DNA of 34,658 nucleotides from Thermoleophilia bacterium (lineage in GTDB: Bacteria; Actinomycetota; Thermoleophilia; BMS3ABIN01): the NCBI GenBank assembly GCA_016650015.1, contig JAENWV010000006.1:1-34658 (forward strand), given 5' to 3'. Under the pieces are notes generated by a model. The model had not been told where the DNA came from and did not search any database. It was given only the letters and a program-made list of their open reading frames with translations. Below are positions 4,509-26,682 of the stretch, piece by piece. A program made the translations under genes and the position numbers. Positions within the stretch are counted from its first letter, which is position 1, and each line of letters starts with the position of its first letter.

Positions 4509-5627
4509 TTGGAACACGAAGAGATGTCCCTATTTCCCGGGTTATCGCGAAGAGATTTCCTCAAGAGCTGTGGCGCGCTGGCCGGCCTGATAGGCCTCAG
4601 CGGACCCATGGCGGCGCCGAGGGTCGCTCGGGCCCTCGAGCAGATGGCCAAACGCCCCTCGGTTGTCTGGTCATGTTTTCAGGAATGTCTGGGCTGCTCG
4701 ATAAATCTCCTGCAATCGCGGAAACCCAATCCGGCCAATCTGATCCTGCAGCAGATTTCCCTCGACTACCACGAAGCGGTCATGGCCGCCGCGGGCTCCC
4801 AGGCGGAAAAGAGCTTCCGGGAGACCGTCGACTCCAAAGATTTCTATTACGTGGTGGAAGGCGGCATCGCCACCGGCATACCCGAAGCCTGCACCATCGG
4901 CGGCAAGACCTCGATGGATATCTGCAAGGATACTTACCAGAAGGCCAAGGCGACCATCGCCATCGGCACCTGCGCCACCTACGGCGGCATCCAGGCGGCG
5001 AAACCCAACCCCACCGGCTCCAAGGGTGTAGCCGACTTCCTCAGGGAAGATGGCGGCATCAAGGATCCCGTGGTCATCAACTCGCCGCGCTGCCCCGGCA
5101 ACGCGGACGACACGGTCGCCATCCTGCTTTACGCCATCGTCAACAAGAAGCTGCCTGAGCTGGACAGTCTGGGCCGACCCAAATTCCTCTTCGGCCAGAC
5201 CGTGCACGACAACTGTGAGCGCCGCGGTCACTTCGACGCCGGCGAGTTCGTGGAACAGTTTGGCGACGAGGGCTCCCAGGAGGGCTGGTGTCTGTATAAG
5301 GTCGGCTGCAAGGGACCGGTGGCCTATGCTCCCTGTCCCAAGACCCGCTGGAACGCCAACACCGCGTGGCCGGTTTCGGCCGGCGGGCCGTGCATCGCTT
5401 GCTCGGAGCCGGACTTCTGGGACAAGCATTCGCCGTTTTATGAAAAAGCGCCGGGCATCATGCTGCCGGGCGATATCACACCCACCCAGATCGGCGTCGG
5501 CCTCGGGGCCCTGACGGCAGCGGGCATCGGCGCCCACTTCGTCGGCCAGGCCGCTACCGGCCGGCTATTCAAAGGGGCGCCGGTAGAAGGCCAAAATGAA
5601 CCAGGCTCCGAAGAAGGAGGTAAGTAG
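4509..5627 (+). CDS. [NiFe]/[NiFeSe] hydrogenase small subunit, Tat-exported, C-terminal membrane anchor
   Basis: Twin-arginine signal SRRDFLKSCGALAGLIGLSG; FeS ligand motifs ECLGC, GTCATYGG, PRCPGN, VHDNCERRGHF...GWC...VGCKGP, WNANTAWPVSAGGPCIACSEPDFWD. Confidence 0.95.
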   Translation: MEHEEMSLFPGLSRRDFLKSCGALAGLIGLSGPMAAPRVARALEQMAKRPSVVWSCFQECLGCSINLLQSRKPNPANLILQQISLDYHEAVMAAAGSQAEKSFRETVDSKDFYYVVEGGIATGIPEACTIGGKTSMDICKDTYQKAKATIAIGTCATYGGIQAAKPNPTGSKGVADFLREDGGIKDPVVINSPRCPGNADDTVAILLYAIVNKKLPELDSLGRPKFLFGQTVHDNCERRGHFDAGEFVEQFGDEGSQEGWCLYKVGCKGPVAYAPCPKTRWNANTAWPVSAGGPCIACSEPDFWDKHSPFYEKAPGIMLPGDITPTQIGVGLGALTAAGIGAHFVGQAATGRLFKGAPVEGQNEPGSEEGGK

Positions 5628-7262
5628 ATGACCAAAGTAGTCATCGATCCCATCACCCGGATAGAAGGCCACCTGCGCATCACCTGCGTGGTGGAAAACG
5701 GCAAGGTAACGGACGCCTGGAACACGGCGACCATGTTTCGCGGTTTTGAAATCTTCATGAAGGACCGCGACCCCAAGAGCATCTGGCAATTCGCCCAGCG
5801 GATCTGCGGCGTCTGCCCGACACCGCACGCCTATAATTCGGTGCGGGCGGTGGAAAACGCCGCGGGGATGAAAACGGTGCCTGACAGCGTGCGCCTCATC
5901 CGCAACATGATGGAGACGACACAGCTGGCCTACGATCACATCCTCTGGTTTTATCACCTGAACGGCTTCGACTACGTCAACGTGCCCAACGCGCTCAACG
6001 CCAAGCCGGGCACACCGGGGCTCAAGGCGGTACAGGACCAGGTCAAGGCGGTCGTCGATTCCGGACAGCTCGGCCCCTTCGCCAACATGTACTGGGACCA
6101 CCCCGGCTACAAGCTGCCGGCGGACATGGACTTGGAGATCACGGCCCACTACCTGCAGGCGCTGGACATCCAGCAGAAAGCCTGCGACGCCAGCGCCGTC
6201 CTGGGCGGCCGCTATCCCATGATCAACAACTACGTGCCGGGCGGCGTCACCCAGATGCCCAGCATCGAGGATATCGAGTTCTATATCTCGCAGATGGGGA
6301 TCGTCAAGGACTTCATCGACACCGTCATGGTGCCGGACCTGCTGGCCATCGCGCCCTACTATCTCGACCTGGCCACTTACGGCAAGGGAGTCGGCAATTT
6401 CCTCACCTGGGGCGTGCTGGACGAGAAAAGTCAGGATCCCTATGACCGGCTCTTCCCAAGAGGCGGCATCTTCGACGGCAAGCTGGCGCTGGAGAAGGTC
6501 GACCTCGCCGAGGCCCGCAAATATACCAAGACCTCCTGGTTCCCGGATGACTTGGGCGGCGGCAAGCATCCGCTCGAGGTGGGCCAGATACCGCAGCAGT
6601 TCACCAAGATGCCGGCCATGGACGGCACGGCCGGACCCGCTGCCAACGACAAGTACGACTGGACCCAGGCGCTGCGCTACGGCAAGGAGGTCCGCCCCAT
6701 GGAGGTCGGACCGCTGGCCCAGGTGCTGGTCGCTTACCTGGCCGGCCGGCCCGAAGCCAAGAAGCTAGTGGACGACACCCTGGCCGCGATCGGGCATGCC
6801 GGCGATCCCACGGTGCTGCTTTCCAACCTGGGCCGCGTGGCCGCCCGCGTCCTCAAAGCCAAGATCAATTCCGACAACGCCCTGCGCTGGGCCAATGAAC
6901 TGCTGGCCAACATCGGTAGCGGCGAAACCAAGATCTACGAGGAGCTGGACTTTAGCAAGGACGGCACCGGCGAGAGCGGCTGGGACGCTCCCCGCGGGGC
7001 GCTGGCCCATTACGCCAAGATCAAGGGCGGCAAGATCGACACCTACGCGGCGAATCCGCCGTCCAACTGGAACCTCTCACCCAGAGACGACAACGGCGTG
7101 CGCGGTCCGGTCGAGGAGGCCCTGGTGGGGATACCGGTGGTCGATACCGAGAAACCACTGGAGATCTTGCGAACCGTGCACACATTCGATCCATGAATGG
7201 CTTGCGCGGTTCACGTGATTGAACCGAAATCCAACAAAGTCCTCAAGTTCCAGGTGCGGTAG
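5628..7262 (+). CDS. [NiFeSe] hydrogenase large subunit, predicted selenoprotein (UGA at 7194-7196 read as Sec523), 544 aa
   Basis: L1 motif RICGVCPTPHAY; reading through TGA gives ...RTVHTFDP-U-MACAVH-VIEPKSNKVLKFQVR then TAG (7260-7262), i.e. the canonical DP(C/U)xxCxxH motif plus a cleavable tail. Confidence 0.93.
7194..7226 (+). promoter_or_regulatory. Candidate bacterial SECIS element for the hydrogenase large subunit
   Basis: UGA followed after 10 nt by CGGTTCA-CGTGAT-TGAACCG (7-bp perfect stem 7207-7213/7220-7226, loop 7214-7219); 17 nt between UGA and loop; G at loop position 2. Confidence 0.8.
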
Positions 7263-7272
7263 GCGATCTGTT

Positions 7273-7923
7273 ATGGGTCATTTACCGCCAACCAGAGAAG
7301 AGCATCCGCTACCGGCAGTCATCATGCACGCCGTTCATATGGTTTCGCTGGTCCTGCTGGTATTCACCGGGTTTTATATTCACAGCCCGTTCTTCAGCGG
7401 TTTCATGGGATACGCGCGGTCCATCCACCAGGTGGCCATGTGGACCTTCGTCTTCACTACGGTCATCCGGTTGTACTGGGCCTTCTTCGGCGCCGGATCG
7501 GCGCCTTCCGGCAGGCGGACCAAGCGGCGCGATTTTCACTGGTTCAGCCCGATAAGGCACAAGGGTGAAGGTAATTTCAGGGATACGCTCAAGTATTACC
7601 TTTTCCTGCGCAAGACCCATCCCGTGGTCGACAAGTTCAACCCGCTGCAGAAGGGTACCTATCTCTTCTGGGCTTTTGTACTGATACCGTTGACGCTGCT
7701 CACGGGGCTTTGCCTCTGGACGCCGACCCAGTCGTTCTTTGAATCATTCACCTACTGGGCCGGTGGCCTGGCGGCCATGCGCAGTTATCACTACCTGCTG
7801 ATGTGGGTCTTCATCGTCACCGCCGGCATTCACCTCTATCTGGTCGTGGCTGAGGTCGCCAGGAAGCTACCTCTGATGTTCGCCTGGAAAGAGGGCAAGA
7901 ATGCGCCGCCAAAACGAACGTAG
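7273..7923 (+). CDS. Hydrogenase-associated membrane cytochrome b subunit
   Basis: Multi-TM protein with spaced His residues (HAVHMVSLVLLVFTGFYIH, YARSIHQVAMW, YHYLLMWVFIVTAGIHLY). Start moved to ATG 7273 because the ORF-track start at 7219 lies inside the true 3' end of the large subunit. Confidence 0.88.
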   Translation: MGHLPPTREEHPLPAVIMHAVHMVSLVLLVFTGFYIHSPFFSGFMGYARSIHQVAMWTFVFTTVIRLYWAFFGAGSAPSGRRTKRRDFHWFSPIRHKGEGNFRDTLKYYLFLRKTHPVVDKFNPLQKGTYLFWAFVLIPLTLLTGLCLWTPTQSFFESFTYWAGGLAAMRSYHYLLMWVFIVTAGIHLYLVVAEVARKLPLMFAWKEGKNAPPKRT

Positions 7924-7931
7924 TCAGATAA

Positions 7932-8447
7932 TTGGCGGACTTGACTGAAGCTGACGGGGGCGCGGGCGCCGCAGGCGCCCGCGCCCCCTCCATAACCATC
8001 CTCGGCGTCGGCAACACGCTGATGGGCGACGATGGCTTAGGCATCTTCGTTGTCGATGGCCTGGACGCCGAAGCTCTCGGCCCCGGGGTCAGCGTTATCG
8101 CCGGCGACACCGCCGGCATGGCCCTTCTAAAACACTTCCTCGAGTCCGACGTGGTCATCGTCGTCGACGCCATGGCCGCCGAAGCCGAGCCCGGCGCCAT
8201 CTTTCGCTTCGACCCTGACGAGGCCGGTATAATGAACCTGCGCTCCAACAACATCCACGGCATGGGCGTTCCTCACCTGGTGACCAACGCCCGGCTCATG
8301 GGGGCCGACCCCCAGGTCACTGTCTTTGCCGTGCAGGTCGGCAGCGTCCAGCCCCGCAACCTTGAGCTCACCCCGCCAGTGGAGTCTGCAGTTGAGCGGG
8401 TCAGAGAGTTGATAGCGGCCGAAGTTGCTCAGCTGCTCGGGAATTGA
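7932..8447 (+). CDS. Hydrogenase maturation protease (HyaD/HybD/HycI family)
   Basis: ITILGVGNTLMGDDGLGIFVVDGL and VVIVVDAMAAEAEPGAIFRF motifs; position in the hydrogenase operon. Confidence 0.9.
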   Translation: MADLTEADGGAGAAGARAPSITILGVGNTLMGDDGLGIFVVDGLDAEALGPGVSVIAGDTAGMALLKHFLESDVVIVVDAMAAEAEPGAIFRFDPDEAGIMNLRSNNIHGMGVPHLVTNARLMGADPQVTVFAVQVGSVQPRNLELTPPVESAVERVRELIAAEVAQLLGN

Positions 8448-10544: not shown

Positions 10545-10647
10545 GATACTCTTGTCCGGGAACCGCTGCGGGGCAGAACCAGGATTTTCTTGCCCGGGAA
10601 AGCCGCTATTGCTATCATCCAGGATCAACGATCATTTTTTTATATAT

Positions 10648-10698
10648 GGCGATGAGGCTCGCCTTTAACCGCTCGCTGAGAGCTAATGGCTTCTACAG
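10648..10698 (+). ncRNA. Fluoride (crcB) riboswitch aptamer
   Basis: GGCGATGAGGCTCGCCTTTAACCGCTCGCTGAGAGCTAATGGCTTCTACAG matches the crcB-motif layout (GGCGATG-GGC-CGCC...TAATGGCxTCTAC) and lies directly upstream of crcB. Confidence 0.93.
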
Positions 10699-10718
10699 GA
10701 AACTGTGGGAGCTTTTTT
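10689..10718 (+). terminator. Intrinsic terminator forming the riboswitch expression platform
   Basis: GCTTCTACAG-GAAA-CTGTGGGAGC (10-bp stem with two G.U pairs) followed by TTTTTT; the 5' arm overlaps the aptamer 3' strand. Confidence 0.88.
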
Positions 10719-10802
10719 AGTTCCGAAACGTCAGTCGGTAACAGGGATCAGGCTACCGAAAGCGCTGAGCCCGGGAGGCAGCATGAGAAAAGCAGCCAGC
10801 AC

Positions 10803-11177
10803 GTGTTGAATTATCTGGTAATCGGGCTGGGCGGTTTCGCCGGCGCCGTCGGCCGGTACATAATCGCCCTCTGGATCGGCGAGCGCTGGGGGAGAAGCTT
10901 CCCGTTGGGTACTCTGACAGTCAACATCAGTGGCTGTTTCCTGATTGGGCTGCTCATGTCGGTGTTCCTGGAAAAAACAATGGTCAGCCCCCAGTGGCGA
11001 TCTTTTCTGGTGGTCGGGTTTCTGGGCGCCTACACCACTTTCTCCGCCTTTGAATACGAAACCGGCGGCCTGGTGAAAGACGGTGAGCTGCTTTTCGCGG
11101 CACTTAATGTCATTCTAAGCGTGGCGGCCGGCTTCGCCGCCCTCAAACTCGGCGAGGTGCTCGCCAGGGGATTCTAG
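10803..11177 (+). CDS. crcB: Fluoride channel CrcB/Fluc
   Basis: LNYLVIGLGGFAGAVGRYIIALWIGERWGRSFPLGTLTVNISGCFLIGLL...FLGAYTTFSAFEYE. The ORF-track start at 10686 is inside the terminator/riboswitch, so the start was moved to GTG 10803 (or TTG 10806). Confidence 0.92.
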   Translation: MLNYLVIGLGGFAGAVGRYIIALWIGERWGRSFPLGTLTVNISGCFLIGLLMSVFLEKTMVSPQWRSFLVVGFLGAYTTFSAFEYETGGLVKDGELLFAALNVILSVAAGFAALKLGEVLARGF

Positions 11178-17375: not shown

Positions 17376-18437
17376 ATGGGGGACAAAGAAGAGATACGGC
17401 TTACACAGCTCGCCCATGGCGCCGGCTGAGCCTGCAAGATAAGTCCGTCGGACTTGCAAACAGTGCTCAAGGAGTTGCCACCGGTGACCAACCCGAACGT
17501 GCTGGTGGGCATCAACACCGGCGACGACTGCGCCGTCTACCAGATAACCGAAGAACTCGCCATCATCCAGACGGTGGATTATTTCACGCCCATCGTCGAT
17601 GACCCGTACGACTACGGCGCCATCGCTGTCGCCAACGCCCTCAGCGATGTCTATGCAATGGGAGCGAAGCCGCTGTTCGCGCTCAACGTGGTCGGCTTCC
17701 ATACCCGAGGCATGCCACTGGAGATCCTCATTCGAATGATGAAGGGCGGTGGCGACAAGGCCCGCGAGGCCGGCGTTGACATCGTCGGTGGCCACACCAT
17801 CGACGACAAGGAGCCCAAGTACGGTCTTTCGGTAACTGGCGTGATCAAACCAGGCGAGATCGTTTACAACTCGACCGCCCAGGTGGGTGATGTGCTCTTT
17901 CTGACCAAACCCCTGGGAGTCGGCATCCTGACCACCGGCATCAAGCGGGGAACCGTTTCAGAGGCTGCCATTGCCAGGGGCGTGGAGGTAATGGCCGCAC
18001 TCAACAGGAGCGCATCCGAAGCCATGGTACAGGTTGGCGTCAACGCCTGCACCGACATCACCGGTTATGGGCTGCTGGGCCACCTGGGAGAGATGACCCG
18101 GGGAAGCGGTGTCGGCGCCAGGATACACGCCCGCGCCGTGCCTGTCATGCAGGCAGCACGCGACCTCATAGACGCCGACCTGAACGCGGTCCCAGGTGGC
18201 AGCAAGAACAACCTGGACTTCGTCAGGCAATTTGTGAATTTCGACCCGTCCATCACCGAGGCCGAGAGGTTGATACTGGCGGACGCACAAACGTCGGGAG
18301 GGCTTTTGATCTCCTGTCCGGCCGGGAAAGCCGATCAAATGGAGCAAGCCCTGAAGGACGCGGGAACTATTATCGCGGCGCGCATAGGAGTGATGGAGGC
18401 AGAGGATGATACCGGCCGAATAGACGTGGTGCCCTAG
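17376..18437 (+). CDS. selD: Selenide, water dikinase (selenophosphate synthetase), predicted selenoprotein (UGA at 17427-17429 read as Sec18)
   Basis: ATG 17376 preceded by AGGGGAGG; reads MGDKEEIRLTQLAHGAG-U-ACKISPSDLQTVLKELPPVTNPNVLVGINTGDDCAVYQI..., matching the SelD active-site motif; body contains TVDYFTPIVDDPYDYGAIAVANALSDVYAMGA. Confidence 0.95.
17427..17459 (+). promoter_or_regulatory. Candidate bacterial SECIS element for selD
   Basis: UGA followed by TGC-AAGAT-AAGTCC-GTC-GGACTT-GCA (6-bp upper stem 17441-17446/17450-17455, U-containing bulge, loop GTC 17447-17449); 17 nt between UGA and loop. Confidence 0.75.
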
Positions 18438-25037: not shown

Positions 25038-25883
25038 GTGATCGTTGACTGTCACACCCATATATTCTCGCCGGAGATAATCGCCGGGCGCGAGGCACAC
25101 CTGCAACAGGAGGAGTGGTTCGCCCACCTCTACGGCTCTACCAACGCCCCCATGGCAGGCGCCAGAGAGCTGGTCGCCGAGATGGATCGCTGCGGCGTCG
25201 ACCGGTCGGTGGTCTGCGGCTTCGCCTGGAACAGCTTCGATCTCTATGTCGAGACCAATTCCTATATTGCCGACGCTGTTCGGCGTTTTCCCGACCGGCT
25301 GGTGGGCTTTGCCAACGTCCTGCCTCTGGATCCGCGAGCGCCGCGGGAGCTGGAGCGCTGCCTGGATCTCGGCCTGCGCGGAATCGGTGAACTCAAACCG
25401 GGCGGGCAGGAATTCGACCTTGCCGACGATGAGGGGCTGAAGCCGCTGGTGGTGATCGCGAAAGAAAATGGCCTGCCGCTGCTGGTCCACCTCAGCGAAC
25501 CGGTTGGACGGCTGTATCCCGGCAAGGGACAGACGAGCCCCCGTAAAGGTTTTGACTTTGCCTCACGGCACCCCGACCTTGATTTGATCTATGCCCATTG
25601 GGGCGGCGGGCTTCCATTTTATGAACTGATGCCGGACGTGCGGGAAGCGCTCGCCAATGTCCGGTATGATTGCTCGGCCAGCCCTTATCTTTACAGCCCG
25701 GAGGTATATCGGGTCACCCTCGATGTCGTGGGGCGTGAAAAGATACTTTTCGGCAGTGACTATCCGCTGATCTCTCCGGAACGCTATATGGAAGAGATGG
25801 ATGGCCTGAGGCTGGCTGACGAAGATCGTGCCGCCATCATGGGCGGAAATGCCGCGGTTCTGCTCGGGCTGGAGACCGGATAG
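25038..25883 (+). CDS. Amidohydrolase (TIM-barrel metal-dependent hydrolase)
   Basis: MIVDCHTHIFSPE, GVDRSVVCGFAW, LIYAHWGGGLPFY, ILFGSDYPLISPERY. Confidence 0.88.
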   Translation: MIVDCHTHIFSPEIIAGREAHLQQEEWFAHLYGSTNAPMAGARELVAEMDRCGVDRSVVCGFAWNSFDLYVETNSYIADAVRRFPDRLVGFANVLPLDPRAPRELERCLDLGLRGIGELKPGGQEFDLADDEGLKPLVVIAKENGLPLLVHLSEPVGRLYPGKGQTSPRKGFDFASRHPDLDLIYAHWGGGLPFYELMPDVREALANVRYDCSASPYLYSPEVYRVTLDVVGREKILFGSDYPLISPERYMEEMDGLRLADEDRAAIMGGNAAVLLGLETG

Positions 25884-25908
25884 ACCCCAATCAACTACTG
25901 GAGATACC

Positions 25909-26682
25909 TTGAACTCGCGCGAAATTCTGGAAAACCTTGCCGCTGGCGACATCTCAGTCGAAGAGGCACAATCGCGGCTCTCACTGGCGGGAGTCTCCGC
26001 CATCGAAGATTTCGCGCGGCTAGATACCGAACGCCACGCCCGTAAAGGCGTTCCCGAAGTCGTCTATGCTCCCGGGAAAACCGTTGAGCAGCTATTGAAG
26101 ATCTGCGGCGCCATGGTCCAACAGGCCGGGCGGGCAATCGCCAGTGGTCTGGATGAGGAGCAATGGGCGGCGCTCGAAAAAACTTTCCCGGGCCAGCTTG
26201 CCGTAGCCAACCGGGACGCAAAAACAGCGGTCTTGCGCGCGCCTGGGCGAGAGCCTGTGCTCACGGGCGGAAAACTCGGCATCCTTTCCGCGGGCACGGC
26301 CGATATGCCAGCCGCCGAACAGGCGAGGGTCATCGCCGAAGAGATGGGCTGTGAGGTAATCGTGGCATACGATGTGGGCGTCGCCGGCGTTCACCGATTG
26401 GTTGATCCTTTAAGAAACATGATCGATTCCGAGGTCGCCGCCATCATCGTCGCCGCCGGAATGGAGGGCGCCCTGCCTTCCGTCGTGGCCGGACTGGTGC
26501 CAACGCCAGTCATCGGCTTGCCCACTTCGACCGGTTATGGATTGGGAGGCGGCGGCATAGCCGCTCTGCTCACCATGCTCCAAAGCTGTTGCCCCGGTCT
26601 GGTTGTGGTCAACATCGATAACGGCGTCGGCGCCGGCGCCACCGGTGCGCTGATAGCCAACCGCGCGGCGCGGCAAAAGTAG
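25909..26682 (+). CDS. larB: Nickel-pincer cofactor biosynthesis protein LarB
   Basis: GILSAGTADMPAAEQARVIAEEMGCEVIVAYDVGVAGVHRL, IIVAAGMEGALPSVVAGLVPTPVIGLPTSTGYGLGGGGIAALLTMLQSCCPGLVVVNIDNGVGAGATG; TTG start with GGAG upstream (the ORF-track start at 25828 overlaps the previous gene). Confidence 0.9.
   Translation: MNSREILENLAAGDISVEEAQSRLSLAGVSAIEDFARLDTERHARKGVPEVVYAPGKTVEQLLKICGAMVQQAGRAIASGLDEEQWAALEKTFPGQLAVANRDAKTAVLRAPGREPVLTGGKLGILSAGTADMPAAEQARVIAEEMGCEVIVAYDVGVAGVHRLVDPLRNMIDSEVAAIIVAAGMEGALPSVVAGLVPTPVIGLPTSTGYGLGGGGIAALLTMLQSCCPGLVVVNIDNGVGAGATGALIANRAARQK

Follow-up and report, generated by a model that had tools for sequence, protein, structure and literature searches.

Can one hydrogenase combine the selenocysteine (Sec) of a [NiFeSe] enzyme with the Pro-type medial cluster and the cytochrome b partner of a membrane-bound uptake enzyme, and if so, which feature came first? 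The question is raised by a 34,658-nucleotide stretch of DNA (the window) from an anaerobic Actinobacteriota MAG of 1.9 Mb that is 85% complete. In the medial cluster of [NiFeSe] hydrogenases, described as [4Fe-4S], Cys replaces Pro (PMC10779653; PMC4070099). In a phylogeny of Deltaproteobacteria and Clostridia, the [NiFeSe] enzymes grouped as one clade (PMC4730141), and in HydDB, [NiFeSe] variants are confined to groups 1a, 3a, and 3c (PMC5037454). Our reading, to which we assign a probability of about 0.85, is that this locus specifies a [NiFeSe] hydrogenase, exported and anchored in the membrane, that would deliver electrons from H2 oxidation through cytochrome b to menaquinone, and that Sec was present ancestrally together with a medial Cys, with Pro arriving later.

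Positions 4509–8447 hold four genes in the same direction, encoding a hydrogenase small subunit, a large subunit, a b-type cytochrome, and a maturation protease (Table 1). The small-subunit frame, which could begin at TTG 4509 or ATG 4524, its medial Pro, and its four-Cys proximal motifs are exactly as given in the preliminary description. Specifically, the medial-cluster region contains CPKTRWNANTAWPVSAGGPCIACSEPDFWD, Pro288 included. The proximal motifs ECLGC, GTCATYGG, and SPRCPGN supply four Cys, and Gly occupies the two supernumerary-Cys positions; the six-Cys proximal cluster of O2-tolerant (group 1d) hydrogenases is absent from the small-subunit motifs. Distal His/Cys motifs read VHDNC and WCLYKVGC. 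As in membrane-bound, cytochrome-b-linked group 1 uptake enzymes, the small subunit possesses both a Tat signal (RRDFL) and a C-terminal hydrophobic helix, the best 19-residue hydropathy of its tail being 1.51, versus 1.71 in a Salmonella Hya-type enzyme. The large-subunit frame runs from 5628 to a TAG at 7260–7262. Its sole in-frame TGA lies within FDP-U-MACAVH and is followed by 21 open codons; the C-terminus reads ...HTFDP-U-MACAVHVIEPKSNKVLKFQVR, and the C-terminal maturation extension is VIEPKSNKVLKFQVR.

Table 1. Features of the window, in window coordinates
Feature	Position	Strand	Details
[NiFe]/[NiFeSe] hydrogenase small subunit	4509..5627	+	372 aa; TIGR00391 340 bits (cut-off 179.5), TAT_signal_seq, PF14720, PF01058
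Pro288 codon CCG	5370..5372	+	medial-cluster position (Cys in HysB)
Hydrogenase large subunit	5628..7262	+	544 aa with Sec523; PF00374 482 bits; open frame with single TGA
In-frame TGA, very probably read as Sec	7194..7196	+	terminal Ni-ligand position, DP-U-xxCxxH; TGA in 28/28 clade-A loci
SECIS-like hairpin	7207..7226	+	CGGUUCA-CGUGAU-UGAACCG; starts 10 nt 3' of UGA
b-type cytochrome subunit	7273..7923	+	216 aa; PF01292 93.7 bits
Hydrogenase maturation endopeptidase, HyaD/HybD type	7932..8447	+	TIGR00072 115.6 bits, PF01750
Fluoride riboswitch	10639..10702	+	Rfam RF01734, 56.4 bits; 5' of crcB
crcB	10686..11177	+	mechanical ORF start
selD, selenophosphate synthetase	17376..18437	+	TIGR00476 381.8 bits (cut-off 125)
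In-frame TGA (Sec) in selD	17427..17429	+	SelD catalytic position, HGAG-U-ACK
LarB-like nickel-pincer cofactor synthesis protein	25828..26682	+	NF033503 239 bits

The TGA at 7194–7196 very probably is decoded as Sec, a conclusion that draws on five lines of evidence. An in-frame UGA at the first Cys position of the terminal DPCxxCxxH motif defines a [NiFeSe] enzyme in the broad sense, and that is the arrangement found here, in all 28 sampled loci of the clade to which the window enzyme belongs (clade A), and in every hydrogenase of the same type found in the order. Downstream, synonymous codons at +4 to +9 after the TGA are frozen in clade A: GTT CAC GTG ATT GAA, the codons of the hairpin, are identical in 28/28 loci (GTG in 27/28), whereas adjacent codons vary freely. 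GTT and ATT each make up only ~10% of the Val or Ile codons in these genes. Among the 3072 possible encodings of AVHVIEP, that of the window ranks ninth in hairpin folding energy, in an eight-way tie; first place goes to the clade B encoding and to one from clade C, and tested Cys homologues rank lower. When covariation was tested across three Sec clades (25 distinct sequences), the pairs were nearly invariant in clade A, and clades B and C showed a register offset of one. Because of this near-invariance and the shifts, we took synonymous-site freezing as the test of the hairpin. An 81-nt stretch folded as a single sequence scored z=-0.09, the hairpin element being too short for that test to be informative.

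Machinery for Sec synthesis and insertion is present in the same genome. selD, itself interrupted by an in-frame TGA, lies ~10 kb downstream of the hydrogenase; the window thus holds two selenoprotein genes, and standard ORF calling truncates or mis-starts each of them. An intact selA and the 5' part of selB are located on contig 254, whose end interrupts selB. Among the 18 relatives searched, all carry selB, and most have a nearby tRNA-Sec (67–72 bits); the source MAG, as an 85% complete assembly, yielded no convincing tRNA-Sec. That the TGA is a genuine stop or an assembly error, leaving a truncated or inactive large subunit, is what standard gene callers imply when they terminate the frame at 7196. 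We consider this possibility negligible: the TGA, the open C-terminal extension, and the frozen synonymous sites recur together in 28/28 loci, and Sec machinery is present; the recurrence of the TGA was itself the ground for rejecting it.

If the active site is that of a [NiFeSe] enzyme, what of the medial cluster? The preliminary description held that HysB has Cys where the window has Pro, and both HysB structures bear this out, with Cys at the medial position in each PDB chain (INWCVENAVCIGC and NWCVQNAVCIGC). The window sequence was searched in alignment for a Cys at the same position, and Pro288 was found instead. Pro288 predicts, and does not prove, a medial cluster that is presumably [3Fe-4S]. 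Medial Pro occurs in 11 of the 28 sampled Sec-clade loci. In the small-subunit tree, these 11 rows form one clade (support 99) inside a 17-row fork (100), the remaining rows being enzymes with Sec and medial Cys. A concatenated tree built without the medial column recovers the Pro clade (100/99), a 12-row fork around it (100/100), and the whole Sec clade (100/99). Since the Pro clade is nested inside Sec/medial-Cys enzymes, Sec preceded Pro in this lineage. The topology indicates that the ancestor of the Sec lineage had a HysAB-like medial Cys and that Pro is a secondary reversal in one subclade, which includes the window; a single Cys-to-Pro change would explain the data, while an ancestral Pro would need several changes to Cys.

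The preliminary description had implied the opposite history, in which Sec arose in a standard membrane-bound uptake hydrogenase of the Pro type ([3Fe-4S]), whose Pro was simply retained. Pro is indeed the common state in [NiFe] enzymes, for example DvMF, and the concatenated tree places a group with active-site Cys and medial Pro close to the Sec clade. That history nonetheless fits the data poorly, and we judge it improbable: the Pro rows are nested (100/99) within the 12-row fork (100/100) that also holds Sec/Cys rows, and the tests reject both a tree with the Sec/Cys rows forced into one clade, leaving Pro basal (p=3e-38), and one with all Pro enzymes forced together (p=2e-6). Treating the five nearest Sec/Cys rows as a single sister clade is not rejected (p=0.39) and is immaterial to the direction of change. 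Two observations concern the medial position elsewhere. The Cys-type hydrogenases of two class-mates (L116, L117) have Val, neither Pro nor Cys. L098 and L101, in a separate lineage with active-site Cys in the HysA half of the tree, have Pro, an apparent second Cys-to-Pro change.

The pairing of a Sec hydrogenase with cytochrome b, also put forward at the outset, is borne out by the TGA in the large subunit and by the PF01292 gene that follows it. This in-operon b-type cytochrome scores over the PF01292 cut-off and under that of TIGR02125 (107.3 bits on the 7219–7920 reading; cut-off 121.5). Its candidate heme ligands H19, H52, H173, and H187 are all conserved, the pattern expected of two bis-His hemes. 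The Sec/medial-Cys relatives of the Pro clade share the same cytochrome b architecture; as judged from the sampled loci, Sec with cytochrome b typifies the whole of clade A and is not peculiar to the Pro form. The complex would comprise the small subunit, the Sec-containing large subunit, and a di-heme cytochrome b, together with a dedicated protease. H2 would most likely be oxidized on the outer side of the membrane, and electrons could pass from the NiFeSe site to the proximal [4Fe-4S], medial (predicted [3Fe-4S]), and distal [4Fe-4S] clusters, and from there to heme b and menaquinone. We infer both the direction of catalysis and the acceptor. Also encoded in this genome are MqnA, from the menaquinone pathway, and a member of the acetyl-CoA synthase family, CdhC (acsB/cdhC), a Wood–Ljungdahl marker; the host is an anaerobic actinobacterium carrying this marker. 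Menaquinone as acceptor would suit a [3Fe-4S] medial cluster, given its higher potential.

Where, then, did Sec come from? Both subunits score higher against Desulfovibrio [NiFe] chains in the PDB than against HysAB (large subunit, 403 versus 270 bits for HysA; small subunit, 322 versus 183 bits for HysB), and neither reaches the NCBIfam cut-off for HysA (NF045518, 353 of 780 bits) or HysB (NF045520, 232 of 470 bits). HysA, HysB, and generic small-subunit queries served only to retrieve PDB chains; the tree sequences are the PDB letters. The large-subunit tree has 77 rows and is rich in Actinobacteriota, its references being one HysA, one Desulfovibrio [NiFe] large subunit, one Nitrospinota sequence, and six plasmid sequences; for the closest Cys relative (G021), its class yielded one genome in the search. 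In this tree, the window enzyme falls in the 28-row, all-Sec clade A (SH-aLRT 100). Clade A lies in the half that contains D. fructosovorans, Hya/Hyb, Coriobacteria-like, and other cytochrome-b enzymes, and HysA lies in the opposite half. Trees that join clade A to HysA (p=2.2e-6), to another actinobacterial Sec clade, B (p=4e-5), or to clade C plus HysA (p=8e-30) are all rejected by approximately unbiased (AU) tests. Of the two placements posed by the preliminary description, HysAB or a Cys-type cytochrome b neighborhood, the large-subunit tree and the AU tests support the latter in this sampling.

That a HysAB-type [NiFeSe] enzyme was acquired horizontally, with cytochrome b and Pro added later, would account for Sec in both enzymes and for the HysB-like medial Cys of the window's relatives. 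The higher scores to Desulfovibrio [NiFe] enzymes, the failed HysA/HysB cut-offs, and the rejected HysA grouping (p=2.2e-6) make it very improbable. The presence of Sec among cytochrome-b-linked uptake enzymes implies either a separate gain or many Cys replacements. Including the window's own, the phylum contains clade A and at least two further Sec clades. One (L048–L050; genomes G202, G148, and G181) is sister to Coriobacteria-like Cys enzymes and has cytochrome b, medial Cys, and an optimal hairpin of a different sequence. Another (L094, L096, L097, L099, L100, L102, L103) belongs to the Aquicultor-containing class and sits in the HysA half of the tree; cytochrome b accompanies some members (L096, L097), none was found with other members, and L094 is without an optimal hairpin at the usual place.

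A history of gains only requires four Sec origins on the large-subunit tree, and one of losses only requires at least ten losses. This count speaks against Sec being ancestral to all these group 1 clades with the Cys enzymes as repeated replacements, a scenario that we regard as unlikely yet deserving of weight: the hairpin is nearly identical in clades A and C (L096 and L102 versus the window), and selenoprotein families are known to have exchanged Sec for Cys as well as Cys for Sec (PMC1794560). The shared hairpin can also be convergent, since few AVHVIEP encodings fold so well. In the present sampling, a Sec gain in clade A separate from that of HysAB, as first suggested, is the simpler reading: clade A groups with cytochrome-b-linked Cys enzymes and not with HysA. 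The support falls short of proof: taxa outside Actinobacteriota are sparsely sampled, and the near-identical hairpins of A and C could reflect descent or convergence; Sec relatives in other phyla could alter the number of origins. We give roughly even odds to a broader proposal, that Sec entered group 1 [NiFe] enzymes several times within Actinobacteriota outside HysAB, perhaps via the re-encodable AVHVIEP segment, and that one such lineage is the first known to combine Sec with a Pro-type, presumably [3Fe-4S], cluster and cytochrome b. Synonymous changes alone could turn the conserved C-terminal AVHVIEP coding into a SECIS hairpin, perhaps easing Sec gain.

Comparison with characterized enzymes places these features in context. 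HysAB of Desulfovibrio vulgaris and Desulfomicrobium baculatum resembles the window enzyme in its Sec at the Ni-ligand position, its Tat-exported small subunit, and its four proximal Cys; its medial Cys is shared by the window's clade relatives, whereas the window has Pro. Unlike HysAB, the window enzyme has a cytochrome b and a C-terminal membrane helix, in addition to its separate tree position and scores far under the HysA/HysB cut-offs. Desulfovibrio periplasmic [NiFe] enzymes (D. fructosovorans, DvMF) are the best PDB match for both subunits and share the medial Pro and four-Cys proximal cluster, but have active-site Cys in place of Sec and are not known to have an in-operon cytochrome b of the window type. 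The HyaABC/HupSLC type, with its TIGR02125 cytochrome, has the same small–large–cytochrome b–protease order, the four heme-ligand candidates, and the small-subunit membrane helix; the window differs from it in its Sec active site, in lacking the six-Cys O2-tolerant proximal cluster, and in its sub-cut-off cytochrome. Coriobacteria-type enzymes, presumably HydDB group 1i, lie in the same tree half and have cytochrome b, with the medial Cys of the window's sister Sec enzymes; unlike the window, they mostly have active-site Cys, and their sister is the Sec clade L048–L050.

The pairing of Sec with cytochrome b has a possible precedent. PMC6895022 names a periplasmic [NiFeSe] hydrogenase in the Firmicute Thermacetogenium phaeum (Tph_c06350–06370), with a b-type cytochrome proposed to reach menaquinone; the [NiFeSe] label may be annotation only. 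In the portion available of a selenoproteome survey of >5200 organisms, the only hydrogenase entries are F420-reducing subunits (PMC5029168). Within the literature covered, which included few subscription journals, we found no description of Sec with medial Pro and no Sec group 1 enzymes for Actinobacteriota. Family names can mislead in this respect. NCBIfam NF033181, "NiFeSe_hydrog," was scanned on the window large subunit, L015, L048, L096, L099, and L045; the Cys enzyme L045 scores above its cut-off (633 bits), and the window and the tested Sec clade A and B members score below it, so its name does not track selenocysteine.

Several further features were noted. A fluoride riboswitch precedes crcB, and because the mechanical ORF start falls inside the aptamer, the true crcB start lies further downstream. 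A LarB-like nickel-pincer cofactor protein shares the window with the nickel hydrogenase. Finally, a second, group 3-like hydrogenase large subunit (L164; G000:C256) is an open frame of 446 aa with Cys in its active site, DPCVSCATH, and a TGA as its true stop.

The window appears to encode a [NiFeSe] hydrogenase variant that shows Sec and the medial Cys to be separable. The fast H2 production and relative O2 resistance of [NiFeSe] enzymes are known only from sulfate-reducer HysAB types, in which Sec is accompanied by a [4Fe-4S] medial cluster. Because the close relatives of the window enzyme all have Sec and differ in the medial residue, the effects of the two could be separated by comparing wild enzymes. 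Ordinary gene calling truncates such Sec hydrogenases at the UGA, and their active site would be missed. With this locus, Sec hydrogenases would extend to the cytochrome-b-linked enzymes of deep anaerobic Actinobacteriota.
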